NCBI RefSeq assembly: GCF_001593955.1 | Contig: NZ_LTAZ01000005.1 | Coordinates: forward strand, 24,001-88,000 | Source of the DNA: Halalkalicoccus paucihalophilus | Lineage (GTDB): Archaea > Halobacteriota > Halobacteria > Halobacteriales > Halalkalicoccaceae | DNA: 64,000 bases | Direction: 5' to 3' | In this document: positions 15,739-23,940 of the stretch, in pieces | Numbering within the stretch: position 1 is the first letter of the stretch | Layout of the letters: the number at the start of each line of letters is the position of its first letter | Notes under the pieces: generated by a model | What the model saw: only the letters and a program-made list of their open reading frames with translations | What the model was told of the DNA's origin: nothing | Database searches by the model: none | Translations under genes and position numbers: made by a program

Positions 15739-16383
15739 ATGTTCGTTCTGGTCAACTGTAAGGCCTACCCGAGTGACCCCGTCGAGATCGCCGAGGCTGC
15801 CCACGAAGTCAGCGAGGACTCGGGGACGCGGATCGCCGTCGCGCCCCAGACCGCCCGACTGGAATCGGTCGCCGAAACCGGCGTCGAGACGTGGGCCCAG
15901 CACACCGACGGCAACGAGACGGGCAGTCACACCGGCAGCGCGCTCGCCGAAGCGCTCGCGGCGGCGGGCGCGACCGGCACCATGATCAACCACTCGGAGA
16001 AGCGCCTGAAGCTCGCCGATATCGACGCCGGCCTCGAAGCCGCCGAGCGCGCCGACCTCGAAACGGTTGTCTGTGCCAACAACCCCGAACAGGTGAAAGC
16101 CGTCGCGGCGCTCGGACCGGATAGCGTGGCCGTCGAGCCGCCGGAGCTGATCGGCTCCGGTACTCCTGTGAGTCAGGCCGACCCCGACATCGTCACCGAT
16201 GCGGTCGCGGCCGCCGAGGCCGTTGACGATTCGGTGGACGTGCTCTGTGGGGCGGGTATCAGCACGGGCGAGGACCTGACTGCTGCCGAGGAGCTGGGTG
16301 CCGAAGGCGTGTTGCTCGCAAGCGGCGTCGCGAAGGCCGACGACCCGCGTGCGGCACTGGAGGACTTGGTCGAACCGCTGTAG
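15739..16383 (+). CDS. tpiA: Triosephosphate isomerase
   Basis: 214 residues, the short archaeal type that lacks the C-terminal helices of bacterial TIM. Catalytic residues are visible: Lys8 in NCKAYPS, His85 in MINHSEKRL and Glu133 in [11 protein letters not shown]. It interconverts dihydroxyacetone phosphate and glyceraldehyde 3-phosphate, the product pool also fed by the DhaKLM system in this window. The gene is followed at once by intergenic element A. Confidence 0.95.
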
Positions 16384-16410
16384 AACGAAAATTCTCGAAT
16401 CTATTGCTGG

Positions 16411-16580
16411 GCGGTGGCCGGCGCGGAGGCGAGCGCCCGACGTGCCGCTCGCCTCCGCGGGACGGGGAAGGGCAGGCGTTCCCGGAAGCGGCACGCGGTC
16501 GCATGCCGCGACTCGGCGGAGCCTGGTCGGACATGAAAAGGGCGAGACGGACCTTGGCAGGTCCGTCGAGGGCTTTCGTT
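16411..16580 (+). ncRNA. Intergenic structured element, copy A
   Basis: 170-bp element between the converging tpiA and Rdx-type genes. It shares with copy B (22309-22628) the start GCGGTGGCC (16411-16419), the identical 17-nt core ACGGGGAAGGGCAGGCG (16462-16478), GCGACTCG (16508-16515) and the end GCTTTCGTT (16572-16580). Between these are a 12-bp perfect stem (16423-16434 with 16447-16458), a 6-bp stem GCGGCA/TGCCGC (about 16488-16507), and an 8-bp stem GACGGACC/GGTCCGTC near 16546-16567. The stem sequences differ from those of copy B but the pairing is kept. It could be a structured small RNA, a 3' UTR element, or a hairpin-bearing repeat; strand is inferred. Confidence 0.5.
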
Positions 16581-16810
16581 TAGAGCCGTGCGCGCACGTC
16601 CCGCGTGATCTGGTCCACGTCATACTCGTCCTCGCTCTTCTCGAAGATCACGTCGCCGTCGATCCGGACCTCGAAGATGCCGTGATCACCGGTAATAAGT
16701 GAGAGTTCGTCGATCTCTTCGCCGAAATTGGTGAGCAGGGCGTGCTGGACGGCCTCGGCGCGCTCTAAGAACCCGCACGGAACGCAGTATTCGATCTCGA
16801 CAGTGGTCAT
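16580..16810 (-). CDS. SelT/SelW/SelH-type Rdx family protein
   Basis: 76 residues. The thioredoxin-like Rdx motif is EYCVPCGFLERAE (CxxC near residues 9-12), where selenoproteins W carry Cys-x-x-Sec. The remainder (FEVRIDGDVIFEKSEDE, then a helix) matches the short family fold. The role is probably redox; no electron partner is adjacent. The stop codon sits directly on the GCTTTCGTT tail of element A. Confidence 0.88.
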   Translation of the reverse strand: MTTVEIEYCVPCGFLERAEAVQHALLTNFGEEIDELSLITGDHGIFEVRIDGDVIFEKSEDEYDVDQITRDVRARL

Positions 16811-16843
16811 AAACGCTAGAAGGAACGCCCGATGGATAAACCC

Positions 16844-18088
16844 TCACTCGAACTCCGAAAGCGAGGCCTGCCCCGAGGGTTCGGCAGACTCCGTGGTGTC
16901 CCCGGCGGGCGATAAAACCGTCGAATCGCCCGTCTCTCCGTTCGCCCCCGCCCACCCGTCGAGACTCGACTGGGGCGCCGAACCGAACTCCAAGTTCGAG
17001 ACGCGCACGCCGACCTTCCTAACTCGCTCTCCCTCGAACTCCTCTAAGAGGTCCCGGACGACCCGATCGACGAGTGCGGGGTCGTCGACGGGGCCGGGAA
17101 GCGAGCGGGCGCGGGTGTTCACGTCGAAGGGGGGCGTGACGAGCTTGATCCCGATGGTGCGATAGAGGGCGTCCTTCCGGGTTGCGCGTTCGGCGACCGC
17201 CTCCGCGAGCGTCAACACGCGCTCTTGAACCTCCTCGTAGTCGGCCGTGACCTCGGTGAACGCCGATTCGCGCGAGAGGCTTTTCGGGCGTCCCTTCGGC
17301 CTCACCTCCCGGTCGTCCTCGCCGCGGGCCCGATCGTAGAGGTCCGCGCCGCGCTCGCCGAACTCCGAGATCAGTGTGTAGCGCTCGGCACTCGCGAGGT
17401 CGCCCGCCGTCTCGATCCCACGTTCGCGGAGGGTGCGAGCCGTGACGGGACCAACTCCGTGCAGGTCCTCGACGGGGACGGGCGCGAGGAAGTCTCGGAC
17501 CTCGTCGGGGCGAACCACGACCAGTCCGTCGGGTTTCTCGGCGTCGCTCGCGATCTTCGCGGTGCTCATGTTCGGCGCGACCCCGACGCTTGCGACCACG
17601 CCTACCGCTTCGAGGATCCGCTCTTTGATCCCGCGGGCGAAGGCCTCGACCTCGTCCCACGTCGTGCGCTCCGTGAGGTCGAGGTACGCCTCGTCGATGC
17701 TCACCTCGCGGACGACTGCCGCGTTAGTGTGCAGGATCTCCCTGACGTCCTCGCTTACGGACTCGTAAAACGGGATATCGACCGGTCGGTAGAACCCCGA
17801 ACGCTCGATGTCGAGGTCTGGGTCGATCGCGGCCTCCCGTTTTCGAGGCAATCGCTCGAGTGCCTCGGAGATCGCCTGTGCGCTCTCGACGCCGAAAGCG
17901 CGGGCCTCGTAGCTCGCGGTCGCGACCGCGCCGTTCGTGGTACCCGGCTCGTATCCCATGCCGACGACGAGCGGTTCGTCTTCGAGGGCGGGCTCACGAA
18001 GGCGCTCACAGGACGCGTAGAAGCAGTCCATATCGGCGTGGGCGACGATCCGCTCTCTGGTTCCGATCCCCGGAAGCCGCGCTCCCAT
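16844..18088 (-). CDS. dinB: DNA polymerase IV (DinB, Y-family)
   Basis: 414 residues from the ATG at 18086-18088 (MGARLPGIG). The catalytic carboxylates appear in AHADMDCFYASCER and VSIDEAYLDLT; the fingers/palm has TASYEARAFGV and the thumb helix-hairpin-helix LHGVGPVTARTLRERGIET. The C-terminus GQASLSEFE is a good PCNA-interacting peptide (Q-x-x-L-x-x-F). It performs error-prone translesion synthesis. The frame is open far upstream to 19117, but the upstream part is shadow of another gene. Confidence 0.95.
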   Translation of the reverse strand: MGARLPGIGTRERIVAHADMDCFYASCERLREPALEDEPLVVGMGYEPGTTNGAVATASYEARAFGVESAQAISEALERLPRKREAAIDPDLDIERSGFYRPVDIPFYESVSEDVREILHTNAAVVREVSIDEAYLDLTERTTWDEVEAFARGIKERILEAVGVVASVGVAPNMSTAKIASDAEKPDGLVVVRPDEVRDFLAPVPVEDLHGVGPVTARTLRERGIETAGDLASAERYTLISEFGERGADLYDRARGEDDREVRPKGRPKSLSRESAFTEVTADYEEVQERVLTLAEAVAERATRKDALYRTIGIKLVTPPFDVNTRARSLPGPVDDPALVDRVVRDLLEEFEGERVRKVGVRVSNLEFGSAPQSSLDGWAGANGETGDSTVLSPAGDTTESAEPSGQASLSEFE

Positions 18089-18159
18089 TGGCCGATATGG
18101 GTGGTGATCAGTGTTAAGCGCCGCGGCTCGGGTCACTGTCGAGGCGGAGCACGGGACCG

Positions 18160-19032
18160 CTATTCGGGGAGATCGTGCTCCGAAACCAGTTCGAGATACG
18201 GGACGAGCGCCTCGATCGCGGACCGTCCCGAGACCCGCGTCTCGACGAGGGAGACCAGTCCCGCGTCCTCTAGCTTCGGGAGGTGAGAATGATGCAGCGA
18301 GACTTCGACCCGCTCTGCGTCCGCATCCGGTTCGTGGCGGGCAACCCACTCCGAAAGTTCCGTGATCGTCACCCAACCCGTATGTTCGTGGAGGTAGTGG
18401 AGGGCGTACCGTCGACGCGGCGCGCGAAGGACGTCGAAGGCCGTGTCGGGAGTGATCGACGGGGATTCCTCGTTGTGTTCCTCGGTAACAGTGTCGAAGA
18501 TCGGCTCGAGCGTCCGGACAGTCGCCTCGTCGACCGCTGCCGGATCGAGCGAGAACTGACTGACGGCGTCGGCTCCCGAGAGTCGCCGGGTGAGGACATG
18601 CAGGAACTGAAACGCCGTTTCGGTCCCGACACTGGCCAACAGGTCCTCGAGGGAGTGAAAACAGACGAGGGTGCTGCCCGCCGTCCAGTCGTCGAGATAG
18701 AGGCTGATCGTCGTGCCCAACTCGGCCAGATCGGCCGGGCTTCGGACGGTAGCGGTGACGTCGTATCCCGTTCGTGAGACCGGATCGACGGAACGATGAT
18801 CGCCGACGGTACTTCCGACGACGATCGTCCCGAAACCGGCGGGGGATTCCTCGATGCGCTCGCGCCACGCCGTACGGAGTGCCCGATGGCTGTCGCCGTA
18901 GGCGACGATCAGGACGTTCCACTCCCGAAGCGAGGCGGCCGGATCGAACGCTCGCTCGACGGTTTCGATCGGAGTTCTCGTCGGGGTGATCGACAGGGCG
19001 TTTCGCGCTTCGGTTGTGAGTGTCTGTATCAT
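18160..19032 (-). CDS. Haloarchaeal regulator-like protein, DUF7504-type N-domain plus C-terminal winged helix
   Basis: 290 residues. The N-terminal half (WNVLIVAYGDSHRALRTA, TIVVGST, LVCFHSLEDLL) has the alternating strand-helix pattern of the RecA-like DUF7504 domain of haloarchaea. The C-terminal third (DTAFDVLRAPRRRYALHYL, VEVSLHHSHLPKLEDAG) is a DUF7344-type winged helix. Domain names are from memory. It is probably a signal-coupled DNA-binding protein; target unknown. The upstream region 19033-19229 is AT-rich and shared with the divergent mscS gene. Confidence 0.8.
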   Translation of the reverse strand: MIQTLTTEARNALSITPTRTPIETVERAFDPAASLREWNVLIVAYGDSHRALRTAWRERIEESPAGFGTIVVGSTVGDHRSVDPVSRTGYDVTATVRSPADLAELGTTISLYLDDWTAGSTLVCFHSLEDLLASVGTETAFQFLHVLTRRLSGADAVSQFSLDPAAVDEATVRTLEPIFDTVTEEHNEESPSITPDTAFDVLRAPRRRYALHYLHEHTGWVTITELSEWVARHEPDADAERVEVSLHHSHLPKLEDAGLVSLVETRVSGRSAIEALVPYLELVSEHDLPE

Positions 19033-19229
19033 GGAAAGGGCGGTTGTGAACTGAAATCCGTATTACATCTATATTTGACTCTATGTATAATAAAGTTACT
19101 GACATGAACGTCCACATACATGTCTATCGGGGAACCGACCCGCCTATCGCGTTGGGTCGCGATCCGTCGCAACTGCTGGGTGAAGGTTAAAACGTATCAA
19201 TACCGTGAATCAATGTACCGTTACAATAG
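19033..19229. promoter_or_regulatory. AT-rich divergent promoter region
   Basis: The gap between the divergent regulator and mscS is markedly AT-rich compared with its surroundings (for example TACATCTATATTTGACT and TATGTATAATAAAG at 19063-19096). It contains several TATA-like motifs in both directions. No operator could be assigned. Confidence 0.4.
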
Positions 19230-20390
19230 ATGTATGCAGACCTCGTCGCTGTCTGGAGCGTCCTGTGGACACTTCGGCCCGATCCGATTCCTGAAATTCA
19301 GCAGACGTATTTCTCGACTATCGGGATACAACTGCTCACAACGGCGGTACTGGTCGTACTGGTCGTCCTCTCGCTCACGTTCGGCCGGCGGTTGGAATCG
19401 ATCGTCGAAGACCGCTACGACCGCCACATCGGTGAAGCCAGCCGCATCGTCTGGCTGCTGTTCGTCATCGCCGCCGGTATTTACGTGCTCAGCGTCGTCT
19501 GGCACGTCACCTACTTCGTTCGGCTGGTCCTCGAAACACTGGTGATCGGTCGCTGGACGGCCATTCAGCAGCTCATTACGGCTTCGATCGTCCTGGTCGC
19601 ATACCTGTTGATACGCTTCGTCAACCGGTCAATCGACGAGCTACAGGGAACGTCGTCGCTGACGAAACACCAAAGCGAGGTCGCCTACCACGTCGCGGAC
19701 ATCGGGATCGCGCTGGGGGCGATGACGCTCATCCTCACACTCTGGGGGGTCGATCTCACCAACATCTTCATCGGTGCGGGTGCGATCACCGCGATCGTCG
19801 GACTGGCCGCCCGCGAAACGCTCGCGGCGGTACTCGCTGGGTTCATCCTGCTGTTTTCTCGCCCCTTTCGGGTCGGCGACTGGATCGAGGTCCAGAACCA
19901 CTCGGGGATCGTCAAGGACGTGACGATCTTCAACACGAAGATCCAGACTTTCAGCGACGAACACGTGCTGGTGCCAAACGACATCATCACCGAAAGCGAC
20001 CTCACGAACCTCTCGCGAAACGATCAGCTCCGGGTCGAGGTCGAGGTCGGTATCGACTACGAGACCGACGTTCACCACGCCCGCGAGGTCGTCGTCGAGG
20101 CCGTCGAGGACTTGGACTCGATCCGCTCCTCGCCCGACCCGCACGTGATCGCAAAGCGTTTTGCCGACTCCTCGATCCTGCTCGAGGTGCGCGTCTGGAT
20201 CGGCGAGCCCACGATGCGACGGCGCTGGAACGCGCGGACAGACGCGATCGAGGCGATCAAGGTCGCATTCGACCGCGAAGGGATCACCATCCCGTACCCC
20301 CAGCGCGTGCAGTCCGCACGCGGCGAGCGGTTCCCGGTCGAGGACGTGCAGTCGGATCGGCCGACGACTCCGCAGGTCGAAAGCGAGTGA
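19230..20390 (+). CDS. MscS-family small-conductance mechanosensitive channel
   Basis: 386 residues. There are four N-terminal hydrophobic helices (about 28-48, 72-98, 108-128, 150-170), then the pore-lining helix with GAGAITAIVGLAARETLAAVLAGFILL, and the beta domain beginning with PFRVGDWIEVQNHSGIV. The C-terminal alpha/beta domain contains the LVPNDIITESDLTNLSR motif. It opens when membrane tension rises, protecting against hypo-osmotic shock. Start at ATG 19230 after an AT-rich upstream region. Confidence 0.93.
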   Translation: MYADLVAVWSVLWTLRPDPIPEIQQTYFSTIGIQLLTTAVLVVLVVLSLTFGRRLESIVEDRYDRHIGEASRIVWLLFVIAAGIYVLSVVWHVTYFVRLVLETLVIGRWTAIQQLITASIVLVAYLLIRFVNRSIDELQGTSSLTKHQSEVAYHVADIGIALGAMTLILTLWGVDLTNIFIGAGAITAIVGLAARETLAAVLAGFILLFSRPFRVGDWIEVQNHSGIVKDVTIFNTKIQTFSDEHVLVPNDIITESDLTNLSRNDQLRVEVEVGIDYETDVHHAREVVVEAVEDLDSIRSSPDPHVIAKRFADSSILLEVRVWIGEPTMRRRWNARTDAIEAIKVAFDREGITIPYPQRVQSARGERFPVEDVQSDRPTTPQVESE

Positions 20391-20429
20391 TACCACGCGG
20401 TTATATACCCGCGGCGAGAAGCGGAGACG

Positions 20430-21758
20430 ATGATCGAGACGGCACGCGAGTACGGGAACCGGCTGGGCCCGACGTGGCTCGCGGGGGCGATCGCGGCGGG
20501 CCCGGCGACGATGGCGAGCCTTTTGAGTGCGGGTGCGGGCTACGGGTATACGCTCCTGTGGGTCGTGATCCTCTCGGCGCTCCTGGGGGCGATCGGCCAG
20601 TTGCTGGCCGCGCGCCTCGGCCTCTTCACCGAGCAGGGGATCGTCTCGACGGTCGAGACGCACCTCGGTGAGGGCTGGGCGTGGGTGCTCGTGGTCGACG
20701 TGGTGCTCGCGGCCGGTCTCGCCCAACTGGTGATCATGAAGACGGTCGCCGACGTGAGTGCGGCCCTCACCGGGATCGATGCTCGCCTCTGGGGCGTCCT
20801 CTGGGCGCTCGTGCTCGCGGTCGGGCTGGCCGGCGGCGGCTACCGCATCGCCGAGGTCGGCGCGAAAGCGCTGGTCTCGTTCGTGGTGGTGCTGTTCGTC
20901 GCGACCGCCATCGTCGTGCCGATCGACCCCGGAGCCGCCGCGAGCGGGCTGGTTCCGCGGATCCCCGCGGGCCTCGACGGCGCGCTCGTCGCCGCGGGCG
21001 TGCTGGGCGGCGCGGTACATATCACCCTGCTCGTGATGCAGAGCTACACCATGCGGGCACGCGACTGGACCCGCGCCGACCAGGATCTCGCCCGGTTCGA
21101 TGTCGGTTCCTCGATGCTGCTCGCCTTCGGCGGGTACAGCCTCGCCATCTTCCTCGTCGCCGCGAGCGTCCTCCATACCCCCGCGGTCGACGCCGCCGCG
21201 ATCACCGCGATCGGGGCGGGGCAGGCGCTCGAACCCGCCGTGGGCACGGCCGCGACGTGGCTGTTCTTGCTGGGACTTCTGGGCGCTGCTGTCTCGACGC
21301 TTGGGGGCAACACAGTCGTCCCGCCGTACGCGCTGGCCGACAAGCTGGGCTGGGGACAGTCGGTCGCGGACCCGCGATACCGCGCGCTGGTCGTCTGTGT
21401 CGCGCTGGCCTCCTCACTCGGGGCGTTTCTCGGTGGCTCCTTTTTCGCGCTTCTGGTGCTCGTCCTCGCGTTCGGGCTGGTCGGTACGCCCTTCGCGATC
21501 GTCCTGATCCTCCTGTTGCTCAACGACCCCGCCGTGGTCGAGGAGCCCCTCTCGCTGCCCGCGAACCTCGCCGGGCTGGCGTTGCTCGGCGTGGCGCTCG
21601 TCACCACCGGAACGTTCGTCCGCGAGCAGGCCGCGGCGATCGCCGACCCGCTCTCGGCGTTCGTCGTCGCCTTCGCCGCCGGGATCGGCCTCGCGACCGC
21701 ACTCCTGCTCGTCCGGTTCGTCCGCACCGCACGGCGACCCGCGACCGTCGAGGTATGA
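20430..21758 (+). CDS. NRAMP-fold transporter lacking the canonical metal-binding residues
   Basis: 442 residues with about 11 membrane helices, of NRAMP (SLC11) fold as judged from GPTWLAGAIAAGPATMAS and GAGYGYTLLWVV. In canonical NRAMP proteins TM1 carries D-P-G-N; here the aligned positions read G-P-A-T. In TM6 the M-P-H motif reads A-V-H, so the methionine ligand is also absent. It therefore may not carry Mn2+/Fe2+; it could move another cation or be a relative of the NRAMP magnesium transporters. The stop overlaps the ATG of the downstream P-loop gene. Confidence 0.85.
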   Translation: MIETAREYGNRLGPTWLAGAIAAGPATMASLLSAGAGYGYTLLWVVILSALLGAIGQLLAARLGLFTEQGIVSTVETHLGEGWAWVLVVDVVLAAGLAQLVIMKTVADVSAALTGIDARLWGVLWALVLAVGLAGGGYRIAEVGAKALVSFVVVLFVATAIVVPIDPGAAASGLVPRIPAGLDGALVAAGVLGGAVHITLLVMQSYTMRARDWTRADQDLARFDVGSSMLLAFGGYSLAIFLVAASVLHTPAVDAAAITAIGAGQALEPAVGTAATWLFLLGLLGAAVSTLGGNTVVPPYALADKLGWGQSVADPRYRALVVCVALASSLGAFLGGSFFALLVLVLAFGLVGTPFAIVLILLLLNDPAVVEEPLSLPANLAGLALLGVALVTTGTFVREQAAAIADPLSAFVVAFAAGIGLATALLLVRFVRTARRPATVEV

Positions 21759-22306
21759 CCCTCCCCACGAGCGGCCGACTCCTCGTTACCGGCCCCTCGA
21801 ACGCCGGCAAGACCCGCCTCACCGCGCGGGCGCTCGCAGCCTGGGTCGAGGAACACGGCCCCGAGGGCGTTGCGATCCTCGAGTTCGCCCCCGAGATCGA
21901 GCGCGACGGGGTCCTGCTGGGTGGGCGCCTCGACCGATTCACCGACCTTCCCGACCGGGCGTGGACCGGCGTTCTCGATGCCCACGCGCCCAGAGCCAGA
22001 GGCACCACCTCCGTGGAGACGCGCGAACTCGCCCGCGAGAACGCCCGCAACGGGATGGAAATCGTCGAAGCGATGCCGCCCTCCCGCGCGGTGTTCGTCA
22101 ACGACGCGACGATCCCCTTCCAGCACGAGGTGGGCGACCTGACGGCGTTGCTCGCCGCCTGCGAGGACAGCGAGTTCGTCGCCATGAACGCCTTTTCGGG
22201 GAGCGAACTGGGAACCGAGGATCCGATCTCGCGTCGCGAGCGGGCGGCAAGGCGGCGGTTGGTAGAGTGGGTCGACACCCACGAGTGCCTCGAAACGCGG
22301 GAGTGA
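21755..22306 (+). CDS. P-loop NTPase, coupled to the NRAMP-fold gene
   Basis: 183 residues from ATG 21755, overlapping the transporter stop by 4 bases. The Walker A is VTGPSNAGKTRLTA near residues 10-23; a candidate Walker B is AVFVNDATIPFQ, and the segment ILEFAPEIERDGVLLGGRLD is distinctive. Its length and motifs do not match a family I recognise with confidence. Because it is translationally coupled it probably regulates or assists the transporter. Confidence 0.75.
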   Translation: MTLPTSGRLLVTGPSNAGKTRLTARALAAWVEEHGPEGVAILEFAPEIERDGVLLGGRLDRFTDLPDRAWTGVLDAHAPRARGTTSVETRELARENARNGMEIVEAMPPSRAVFVNDATIPFQHEVGDLTALLAACEDSEFVAMNAFSGSELGTEDPISRRERAARRRLVEWVDTHECLETRE

Positions 22307-22308
22307 GC

Positions 22309-22628
22309 GCGGTGGCCTCGCTTCGCTGCCGCCGGCCGCGAAGCGAACGGGGAAGGGCAGGCGTCCCGAGAGCGCCGTCCAACCGAACGGCGCGACTCGA
22401 CGGTACTTGGCGGTCATAGAAAATCATAGATTTTCTGAATCTCGAAGTGCTGTAAGCACTTCGATGACTCGTCGGAAGACCGCGGTCTTCCGAGACCTCG
22501 CAGGAACGCAGTTCCCACGGACCTCACGATGGCGGAGCCATCGCTCAGCCCACAAAGGCCGCAAGCGGCCTTTTGTAGGGAAACGAAACGGGCGAACGAG
22601 GGTCGCCAGTCCCGAGTGAGCTTTCGTT
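22309..22628 (+). ncRNA. Intergenic structured element, copy B, with embedded hairpin array
   Basis: Lies between the converging P-loop and thioredoxin reductase genes and fills the non-coding gap. It shares with copy A: GCGGTGGCC (22309-22317), ACGGGGAAGGGCAGGCG (22347-22363), GCGACTCG (22392-22399) and GCTTTCGTT (22620-22628). The first stem TCGCTTCGC/GCGAAGCGA (22318-22326 with 22338-22346) directly abuts the core; the second is GCGCCGT/ACGGCGC (about 22372-22393). Copy B is longer because about 150 bp of hairpins (22418-22574) lies in its second half. Confidence 0.5.
22418..22574. repeat. Array of six unrelated tight-loop perfect hairpins
   Basis: Six inverted repeats in series: AGAAAATC/GATTTTCT (22418-22436), TCGAAGTGCT/AGCACTTCGA (22442-22464), TCGGAAGACC/GGTCTTCCGA (22472-22493), GGAAC/GTTCC (22503-22515), CGATGGC/GCCATCG (22527-22543) and AAAGGCCGC/GCGGCCTTT (22554-22573). 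Loops are only 2-3 bases. Each stem sequence is different, but linkers resemble each other (GACTCG, GACCTCGC, GGACCTCAC). Not a CRISPR: no repeated unit. Confidence 0.75.
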
Positions 22629-23940
22629 AGTCGGATTCGGCGGCCGCCGGCTCGGCGGCGGTACTTGCGCTTCGCTCCTCGTCCTCGAGGAACTCGTCGG
22701 CGTCGATGGCCGCCTTACAGCCCATCCCGGCGGCCGTGACCGCCTGCTGGTAGTGGTAATCGACCACGTCCCCCGCGCCGAAAATGCCCGGGACGGCGGT
22801 TTTCGTCTGGCCGCCGCCCTTCCCGCCACGGGTCTGCAGGTAGCCCTCGGCGTCCATCTCCACGCCTGTGCCCTCGAGGTACTCCGTGTTCGGCGTGTGG
22901 CCGATGGCGATGAAGAAGGCCCCCACGTCTAGATCGTACTTCTCCGTTTCGGGGTCGTCGAGTTTCGCCGTCGGATGGCCCTCAGGGTGGCTCACGAGCG
23001 AGACTGTCTCGACGCCGGCCTCGGGCGTGCCGTGGATCTCGGTGACTTCGGTGTTCCGGAGGATCTCGACGGTACCCTCCTCGACCTGCTCTTCGATCCG
23101 GTCGATCCAGTAGTCCTCGGCGCGGAACTCCTCGCGTCGGTGGACGAGATAGACCTTTTCGGCGAACTTCGTGAGGAAGTTCGCCTCCTCCATGGCGGCA
23201 TCACCACCGCCGACGACGACCATCTCCTCGCCGCGGAAGAAGGCGCCATCGCAGGTCGCACACGTCGAGACGCCGTAGCCCATCATCTCGTCCTCGCCCG
23301 GCACTCCAAGGGTTCGGGCGCTCGCGCCGCTCGCGGCGATGACGGCGTCGGCGGTGTAGACGCTGCCGTCTTTCATGCGCACCTCGTAGGGCCGTCCCGA
23401 GTCGTCGACCGACTCGATGACGCCGTTTACCACGTCGGCGCCGAACTGGGTGGCCTGCTCTTTCATGTTGTTGATCAGCTCCGGTCCCGAGATGCCTTCG
23501 GGGAAACCGGGGTAGTTGGCCACGTCAGTCGTGAGGGTGAGTTGGCCGCCGGGCTCGGTGCCCTCGATAACGAGCGGTTCGTTGTTCGAGCGGGCGGCAT
23601 AAATCGCTGCCGTGAGTCCCGCGATCCCGCTGCCGGCGATCACGAGCCGACGGTGTTCGACCTCGTCCTCGCGTTCGATCCCCAGTTTCTCGTCGAGTTC
23701 GCCCGTCTCGTCGAGCGCGCTGGTTTCGTCCCAGCCGCCGATCAGTTCGTCGTCGACGAACACCTCGGGGGCGGTCTGGCGACCCTCGGCGCGCTCGACC
23801 ATCTCCTCGAACAGCGCCTCGTCCTCCGAGACGTTGTACTCCTCGTAGTCGACGCCCTTGGCGTCGAAGAGGTCCTTCGCCATCTCGCAGTACGGACAGT
23901 CGGTCTTGGTGTAGATCTCTACCCGTGGCTGGTCGCTCAT
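22627..23940 (-). CDS. Glutaredoxin-thioredoxin reductase fusion protein
   Basis: 437 residues. N-terminal glutaredoxin domain (residues 5-85) with CPYC (Cys15, Cys18) and TAPEVFVDDELIGGWDE; then a full thioredoxin reductase with FAD motif AGSGIAGLTAAIYAARS, GGQLTLTTDVANYPGFPEG, the redox CATC (Cys227, Cys230), NAD(P) site VGGGDAAMEEANFL, and FGAGDVVDYHYQQAVTAAG. The reductase likely passes electrons straight to the fused glutaredoxin domain. The acidic Ala/Glu-rich C-terminus is a haloadaptive tail. Confidence 0.95.
   Translation of the reverse strand: MSDQPRVEIYTKTDCPYCEMAKDLFDAKGVDYEEYNVSEDEALFEEMVERAEGRQTAPEVFVDDELIGGWDETSALDETGELDEKLGIEREDEVEHRRLVIAGSGIAGLTAAIYAARSNNEPLVIEGTEPGGQLTLTTDVANYPGFPEGISGPELINNMKEQATQFGADVVNGVIESVDDSGRPYEVRMKDGSVYTADAVIAASGASARTLGVPGEDEMMGYGVSTCATCDGAFFRGEEMVVVGGGDAAMEEANFLTKFAEKVYLVHRREEFRAEDYWIDRIEEQVEEGTVEILRNTEVTEIHGTPEAGVETVSLVSHPEGHPTAKLDDPETEKYDLDVGAFFIAIGHTPNTEYLEGTGVEMDAEGYLQTRGGKGGGQTKTAVPGIFGAGDVVDYHYQQAVTAAGMGCKAAIDADEFLEDEERSASTAAEPAAAESD

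Follow-up and report, generated by a model that had tools for sequence, protein, structure and literature searches.

In bacteria, interspersed palindromes are commonly attributed to transposases and spread. According to extracts of two papers (PMC3733652, PMC6006769), REP and BIME elements with their RAYT (TnpA-REP) transposases are short, multi-copy intergenic palindromes at gene borders that combine into multi-hairpin mosaics, a description that also fits the elements reported here. The PATEs of Haloquadratum share further traits with our elements, being haloarchaeal, non-coding and palindromic without terminal inverted repeats; in extracts of PMC3119063 they are IS605-related, with strain-specific insertions. 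A third point of comparison is the haloarchaeal terminator. Intergenic 3′ ends of Haloferax show a T stretch followed by C, with T5C reaching 95% efficiency, and 503 mapped sites are preceded by hairpins (PMC7237163, in extract). In the extracts of PMC8716108, aCPSF1 acts with terminator U-tracts.

The archaeal family described here looks like the opposite of the bacterial case: its positions are shared, it has no link to a transposase, and its stems turn over freely while one strand retains its fold, tandem GA pairs included. It offers a clean natural experiment for structure-only selection, and its sites at stop codons and behind fttA make a role at transcript ends directly testable in haloarchaea. 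Its last hairpin, S3, resembles a haloarchaeal terminator (as outlined in extracts of PMC7237163) in carrying TTTC on the + strand beside a stop codon. Unlike such terminators, the family has two more conserved stems, a purine core, a strand-specific fold and sites between divergent genes, and termination by it is a prediction.

Elements A and B

The window, that is, the whole 64,000-nt (64-kb) stretch of Halalkalicoccus paucihalophilus DNA that was analysed, contains two of these elements:

16411–16580, + strand: element A, base form (160-nt class), model match G000:C5:40411
16411–16419, + strand: conserved 5′ block GCGGTGGCC of A, from the sequence
16422–16459, + strand: stem S1 of A, 14 bp, arms 16422–16435 and 16446–16459, loop of 10 nt, from folding and family covariation
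16462–16478, + strand: core ACGGGGAAGGGCAGGCG of A, purine-rich, unpaired in the family model, from the sequence
16488–16509, + strand: stem S2 of A, arms of 9 nt, loop GGTC, one C·A mismatch, from sequence and covariation
16521–16531, + strand: linker GCCTGGTCGGA of A (family form CCTGGYGG), from the sequence
16537–16576, + strand: terminal unit S3 of A, consisting of AAAGGGCGA, 9 bp, loop TGGC and GAGGGCTTT, from the family units
22309–22628, + strand: element B, long form with additional hairpins, model match G000:C5:46309
22318–22346, + strand: stem S1 of B, arms of 13 nt, one T·C mismatch, loop of 3 nt, from the sequence
22347–22363, + strand: core ACGGGGAAGGGCAGGCG of B, from the sequence
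22372–22393, + strand: stem S2 of B, from the sequence
22416–22583, + strand: six optional hairpins of B, from the sequence
22590–22626, + strand: S3 unit of B, consisting of GGGCGA, arm, GCCA loop, arm and GA GCTTTC, adjoining the stop of the − strand gene

The first-pass annotation had described four blocks shared by A and B, with perfectly self-complementary stems between them. The blocks lie where it placed them (GCGGTGGCC at 16411 and 22309, the 17-mer at 16462 and 22347, GCGACTCG at 16508 and 22392, and GCTTTCGTT at 16572 and 22620), and the 17-mer is identical in both elements and occurs nowhere else in the window (two + strand matches, none on the − strand). GCGACTCG, on the other hand, is uninformative as a marker, matching five times on the + and six times on the − strand of the window. 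The 3′ end of B is GAGCTTTC, not GAGGGCTTTC. Nor are all stems perfect: in addition to the C·A in S2 of A and the T·C in S1 of B, S3 of B contains a tandem GA/GA and a T·T. Both elements do lie between converging genes, as annotated. A is flanked by tpiA (+, ending at 16383) and by an Rdx-family gene on the − strand, at whose stop (16580–16582) it ends; B is preceded by a + strand gene that ends at 22306 and followed by a trxB-like gene on the − strand (22627–23940). The optional hairpins of B are, in order, AAAATC..GATTTT, GAAGTGC..GCACTTC, GGAAGACC..GGTCTTCC, GGAAC..GTTCC, CGATGG..CCATCG and AAAGGCC..GGCCTTT.

Compared with shuffled sequences, the folding energy of A gave a z of −1.93 on the + strand and −4.41 on the − strand; the + strand value is modest, so folding energy alone would have missed the structure. 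The S3 hairpin of A (16546–16567) is inverted, with a TGGC instead of a GCCA loop as if flipped between its arms, the sole such case in 95 units.

A family of folded intergenic elements

A pattern search allowing mismatches first yielded further copies of the same layout, and a covariance model (R1) was built from 11 copies of the genome under study (G000), with the first ∼120 nt aligned. In this genome, R1 finds 20 copies at E ≤ 1e-5 and 22 at E ≤ 1. Among 40 genomes including our own, 14 match at E ≤ 0.01 (some weak matches from this search were left out of the retrieved loci), and the same-genus genomes G001–G006 hold 21, 26, 8, 12, 12 and 17 copies at that threshold. Under stricter filters, 21 of 292 genomes of the class, again including our own, match at E ≤ 1e-4. 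An element recognised by eye at L266 (genome G058) is absent among the R1 matches listed, so R1 seems to undercount.

The first-pass annotation had suggested, as a possibility, an unnamed structured RNA or hairpin-bearing repeat family of haloarchaea whose structure is under selection. The dispersed copies and strong pairing covariation (below) support this, with RNA as a candidate form. The core is not confined to two places, nor do the other copies lack conserved pairing. The exact 17-mer occurs three times in the genome, and allowing up to three mismatches gives 37 matches versus 23 for the reversed pattern. It varies across the family, in which CGGGGAAAGGCTGG and CGGGGAAGGGCTGG are the commonest cores. 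Rfam models gave no match within the window at curated score; at E ≤ 5 the region 16350–22680 gave one weak match (sR20, 18777–18818), outside A and B. In the open-access literature searched, the titles and abstract openings listed describe no family of this kind. A and B belong to an apparently undescribed family of folded intergenic elements of 160–280 nt.

The family has a common layout. The 5′ half consists of GGTGGCC, S1, the core CGGGGAAGGGCWGG, S2 and a CCTGGYGG linker; the 3′ half comprises zero or more optional hairpins, AAAGGGCGA, S3 with its GCCA loop, and GAGGGCTTTC. S1 arms score 5–17 bp (mean 12 bp). The S2 loop has four bases, most commonly GATC (17 of 55 distinct stems). S3 has a GC-rich stem of 9 bp, is bordered by AAAG and CTTT, and carries the GCCA loop in 82 of 95 units. 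Measured to the GGGCTTT end, lengths cluster at 150–169 (n = 40), 220–229 (n = 16) and 270–279 nt (n = 13), together 69 of 90 copies, and the additional hairpins therefore seem to be modular. In some copies the S3 unit is doubled in tandem (L133, L147, L152, L124), and in three others (L149, L165, L167) a branched domain that starts with TTCTCGCGG and returns with GCTCGAA replaces the S2 loop.

Covariation and the folding strand

For S3 we collected 95 units (74 distinct arm pairs), picked by their flanking blocks alone, not by arm pairing, and restricted to those with exactly 22 nt between the blocks. Of their cells, 92.3% are paired; shuffling gives 67.9 ± 0.8, and sliding the partners gives no more than 45.9. 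In 361 cells both sides are changed from the commonest pair (122.6 ± 15.3 shuffled). Even the outermost pair covaries (64 GC, 8 AU, 2 UA, 3 GU and 18 unpaired). For S1 and S2, 90.2% of cells are paired across 103 copies (65.3 ± 0.7 shuffled), with 544 both-side changes (169.9 ± 12.4 shuffled); here the model itself guided the alignment, and the shuffles take no account of relatedness. Measured against such shuffles, the covariation supports a fold, as would be expected of a conserved structured RNA. What selection preserves is the fold of the + strand and not the letters of its stems.

The choice of strand comes from the mismatches. In stems found without any mismatch preference, there are 27 tandem GA/GA, 26 of them in S1 and one in S2, and no TC/TC. 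Inside the S3 arms, 19 of the 74 distinct arm pairs have GA/GA, either at arm position 3 (n = 14) or at position 6 (n = 5), next to eight other mismatch runs and again no TC/TC. Altogether, 46 GA/GA tandems (26 + 1 + 19) and no TC/TC lie at positions that played no part in selection. These counts replace a first tally (GA/GA 100, GG/GG 56, TC/TC 0), in which the basal GA/GA and GG/GG of S3 sat in the selection blocks. Tandem G·A pairs can form on the + strand and not on its complement. Judging from these mismatches the + strand is therefore the folding strand, be it as RNA or as single-stranded DNA, which the GA/GA test fits alike. Among single mismatches, G·T outnumbers A·C by 43 to 17 (30 versus 11 in an earlier set, binomial p 0.004); in the S3 arms outside the selection blocks the counts are 12 and 9, so the excess comes chiefly from S1. 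The 43 G·T (G·U) occur in ∼3000 stem positions, a low share that is unusual for RNA.

Three additional contacts were considered and dropped. For a pseudoknot between the S1 loop and the core, inspection by eye revealed no consistent pattern of covariation, and a kink-turn at the base of S3 lacks the 3-nt bulge. Pairing of the GCCA loop with TGGY of the linker is compatible with most copies and too invariant for covariation; A opposes it, as its loop has become TGGC with no matching change in the linker.

Tandem GA pairs form in DNA as well. The elements could accordingly act at the DNA level, their + strand folding as single-stranded or cruciform DNA at gene borders in the manner of REP/BIME, and either function in replication or supercoiling or be left over from transposition. 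We consider this unlikely. The DNA-compatible GA tandems and the few G·U pairs agree with it, as do the occupation of all four gene orientations (by rough gene calls) and the flipped S3 loop (TGGC) of A, which inverted-repeat recombination in DNA would yield. Against it, we saw no mobility, all 20 copies of our genome being at shared loci.

Shared positions, stem turnover and loss

Each of the 20 copies of our genome has a counterpart in another genome with homologous DNA on both sides. Some of these loci extend to other families; the valS locus, for instance, is shared by seven genomes on both flanks and by G015 on one. Judging from the shared loci, the family was already present in an ancestor of three haloarchaeal families and has been inherited at fixed gene borders, although descent from a common ancestor, as opposed to transfer, is our inference.

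The family also differs from REP/BIME. The invariant GT[AG]G foot of REP/BIME hairpins is not a family trait: 72 of 106 copies in the genus have GTGG and none GTAG, with GCGG in 11, ATGG in 8 and others in the rest. No match to the cognate Y1 transposase (PF01797) was found in G001, G002 or G003, genomes with 21, 26 and 8 copies, which also counts against an element acting as DNA. Our own genome has seven Y1 matches, on C12, C13 and C17, and its 20 strong elements are on C1, C3, C4 and C5. Copy number is about 20, in contrast to the more than 100 usual for REPs (PMC2817692, in extract), and unlike in REP/BIME, loci are shared and stem sequence is not conserved. With no invariant foot, Y1 unlinked and positions shared, we reject membership in REP/BIME. 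Derivation from PATEs or IS605 was likewise rejected: unlike those of PATEs, the positions are common to species and families, with shared flanks for 20 of 20 copies, and the absences compared at locus A leave remnants (G002, G003) or fall in changed surroundings.

At shared loci the flanks are ∼85% identical (best HSP, 153 pairs). Mean stem identity is 0.55–0.65 between orthologous loci versus 0.50–0.53 between unrelated ones; with identity this close to the unrelated level and pairing still intact, stems are nearly saturated. Gene conversion between copies was rejected as an explanation: different loci are as similar within a genome as between genomes, which leaves concerted evolution unsupported. 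An earlier bias of S2 towards paralogues (45 paralogue-better, 20 orthologue-better, 10 ties) was unfair, as it compared best-of-many with best-of-few.

At locus A, the element is kept in G001 and G006, and G003 holds a decayed S1. In G002 (L311), a 10-nt stretch (GGCGTTCGTT) between the stop codons of tpiA and Rdx resembles the last bases of a deleted element. In G005 (L310:1006–1330), the 5′ block is followed by about seven short-loop hairpins that replace core, S2 and S3. In G004, G007 and G015, no Rdx gene lies beside tpiA and no element was seen there. At locus B, inspection by eye of 420 nt revealed an element in G002 alone of seven genomes with the gene. Absence and decay of copies are common, and no clear case of fresh insertion was seen at loci A and B among the relatives compared.

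Stems near saturation, together with remnants and decayed copies (G002 and G003 at locus A; L258, L259 and L261), could also mean that the elements are neutral relics, palindromes held perfect by template switching during replication and with no present function. We regard this as improbable: template switching would not be expected to yield GA/GA tandems, conserved GCCA loops or purine linkers, and the copies appear to have persisted while the surrounding DNA was trimmed to a few bases from the stop codons.

Gene borders and the fttA locus

Gaps to neighbouring genes were counted within −30 to 120 nt, and the right edge proved tight. Of 47 − strand neighbours in range on that side, 37 have their stop codon between −1 and +5 nt, and the start codon of a + strand neighbour follows after 39–43 nt in 12 of 17; the latter distance is the length of a leaderless haloarchaeal promoter. 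On the left, the gap is mostly 15–45 nt to a + strand stop (31 copies) and centres on 63 nt to a − strand start (37 copies). Approximate orientations for 126 copies are 44 convergent, 35 and 15 tandem, 27 divergent and 5 undetermined, based on rough gene calls by a codon-position GC rule that replaced longest-ORF calling, which is unreliable in GC-rich DNA. For divergent sites we therefore draw on the Pfam-checked loci of our own genome, which include convergent, tandem (−,−) and four divergent cases (4 of 20 copies: LigT/TPR, UDG/class I tRNA synthetase, Iso_dh/ECH and Usp/DUF5781). The gyrB/gyrA copy lies antisense between two genes of the same direction. Neighbours are varied housekeeping genes (gyrB/gyrA, EF-2, EF-1 beta, class I tRNA synthetase, tpiA, isopropylmalate-type dehydrogenase, fttA), among which no common pathway is apparent.

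In family f8 (G016 and relatives), there are 34 matches in 31 of 125 genomes at E ≤ 0.01, 29 of these genomes having a single match. All 20 newly fetched f8 loci at E ≤ 1e-4 lie behind fttA/aCPSF1, as in G016; in total 29 new loci were fetched, 21 of them at fttA and 8 elsewhere (all at E of at least 5.8e-4 and left out), and a second copy in G327 (E 1.5e-5) was also left out. The gene at this locus encodes a KH-MBL-beta-CASP protein, which from its domains we take to be the transcription-termination factor FttA/aCPSF1. The f8 copies are antisense to fttA and, in most cases, flush with its stop. At L244 a long array of hairpins comes first, and the model match falls beyond the 330 nt inspected. 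The fttA locus also carries an element in six same-genus genomes including our own and in two f7 genomes (L276, L277), making it the most persistent position found. When 30 fttA loci from 30 genomes were inspected by eye, 7 had full or long elements (L257, L260, L266, L271, L276, L277, L282), 3 had remnants (L258, L259, L261), 1 had a contig-end fragment (L285) and 19 had none.

A candidate role at transcript ends

Our best explanation, offered tentatively, is that the family is a gene-border element in which S3 would end transcripts and S1, core and S2 would form a 3′ RNA domain, insulating neighbouring genes. In this scheme, S3 would act as a bidirectional hairpin terminator, sited either directly at the neighbour's stop codon or a short way ahead of its promoter. 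S1, the purine core and S2 would fold into a compact domain at the 3′ end of the + strand transcript ending there, and both parts together would insulate the adjacent genes. We infer three of these steps: the + strand would be transcribed, S3 would stop transcription, and the gain would lie in insulating the genes on either side. C directly follows CTTT in 78 of 95 S3 units, and on the − strand of S3, T3–T4 is followed by C in 57 of 95. Together with the Haloferax terminator pattern and the U-tracts with which aCPSF1 acts, these tracts favour the transcript-end reading. Several observations count against it. The T tracts at S3 are short, and a terminator scan of A gave one match (0.4 ± 0.7 expected), on a stem other than S3. 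Elements are not restricted to sites downstream of genes, 4 of the 20 own loci being divergent; divergent copies need no terminator and would not be expected to be transcribed, which argues against a simple one. The conserved core is unexplained by any terminator feature. The rarity of G·U, the − strand being favoured by the folding energy of A, the lack of a promoter signal upstream (below) and the antisense gyrB/gyrA copy also weigh against it.

Copies in divergent contexts, which read-through should not reach, would fit if the elements were stand-alone structured noncoding RNAs, some 20 trans-acting paralogues each with the S3 hairpin at its end. Such an RNA could explain the strand-specific fold with its conserved single-stranded blocks and GCCA loops, the clustered lengths, and a linker TGGY that could pair with the GCCA loop. 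However, no conserved promoter signal was found in the 120 nt upstream of the elements (AT ∼40% vs 33%), the left gap to a + strand stop, mostly 15–45 nt, is short for a promoter, and close relatives lack copies or have decayed ones. On balance, independent RNAs are possible but doubtful.

In its broadest form, the transcript-end reading would make the family a hitherto undescribed multi-copy archaeal class of structured RNAs, with helices in which tandem G·A takes the place of Watson-Crick pairs. These RNAs would have stayed at the same gene borders for as long as several families have existed, the most persistent copy lying behind fttA, and FttA might respond to them as part of a control of transcript ends by RNA. 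This wider proposal, drawn from sequence comparison, is more speculative, and we would not expect all of it to hold.

A related element type

A relative, type II (GGGCAGG..CCGCGAGCGA..), shares with the elements above (type I) the 5′ module GGTGGCC-S1-GGGGAAGGGCAGG. It differs in its 3′ half, which frequently carries long T tracts and tandem-GA helices of the form CGAGCGA..GAGCGAG. Type II was observed at L048, L131, L150, L151, L202, L203 and L210 and at the Natrinema loci L092, L093 and L099. A contig pattern scan, from which near records were possibly omitted, gave 32 matches, 28 of them scattered, non-haloarchaeal and presumably due to chance; of the 4 Natrinema loci, 3 match the model, all type II by reading. 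The exact type II pattern is frequent in f8 genomes, with 16 occurrences in G163, and it also matches other DNA, with at least one match in 100 of 242 genomes. Type II has several copies in this family, where type I is mostly single copy. At one locus, compared by its upstream flank only, f7 genomes carry type I and this genus type II.
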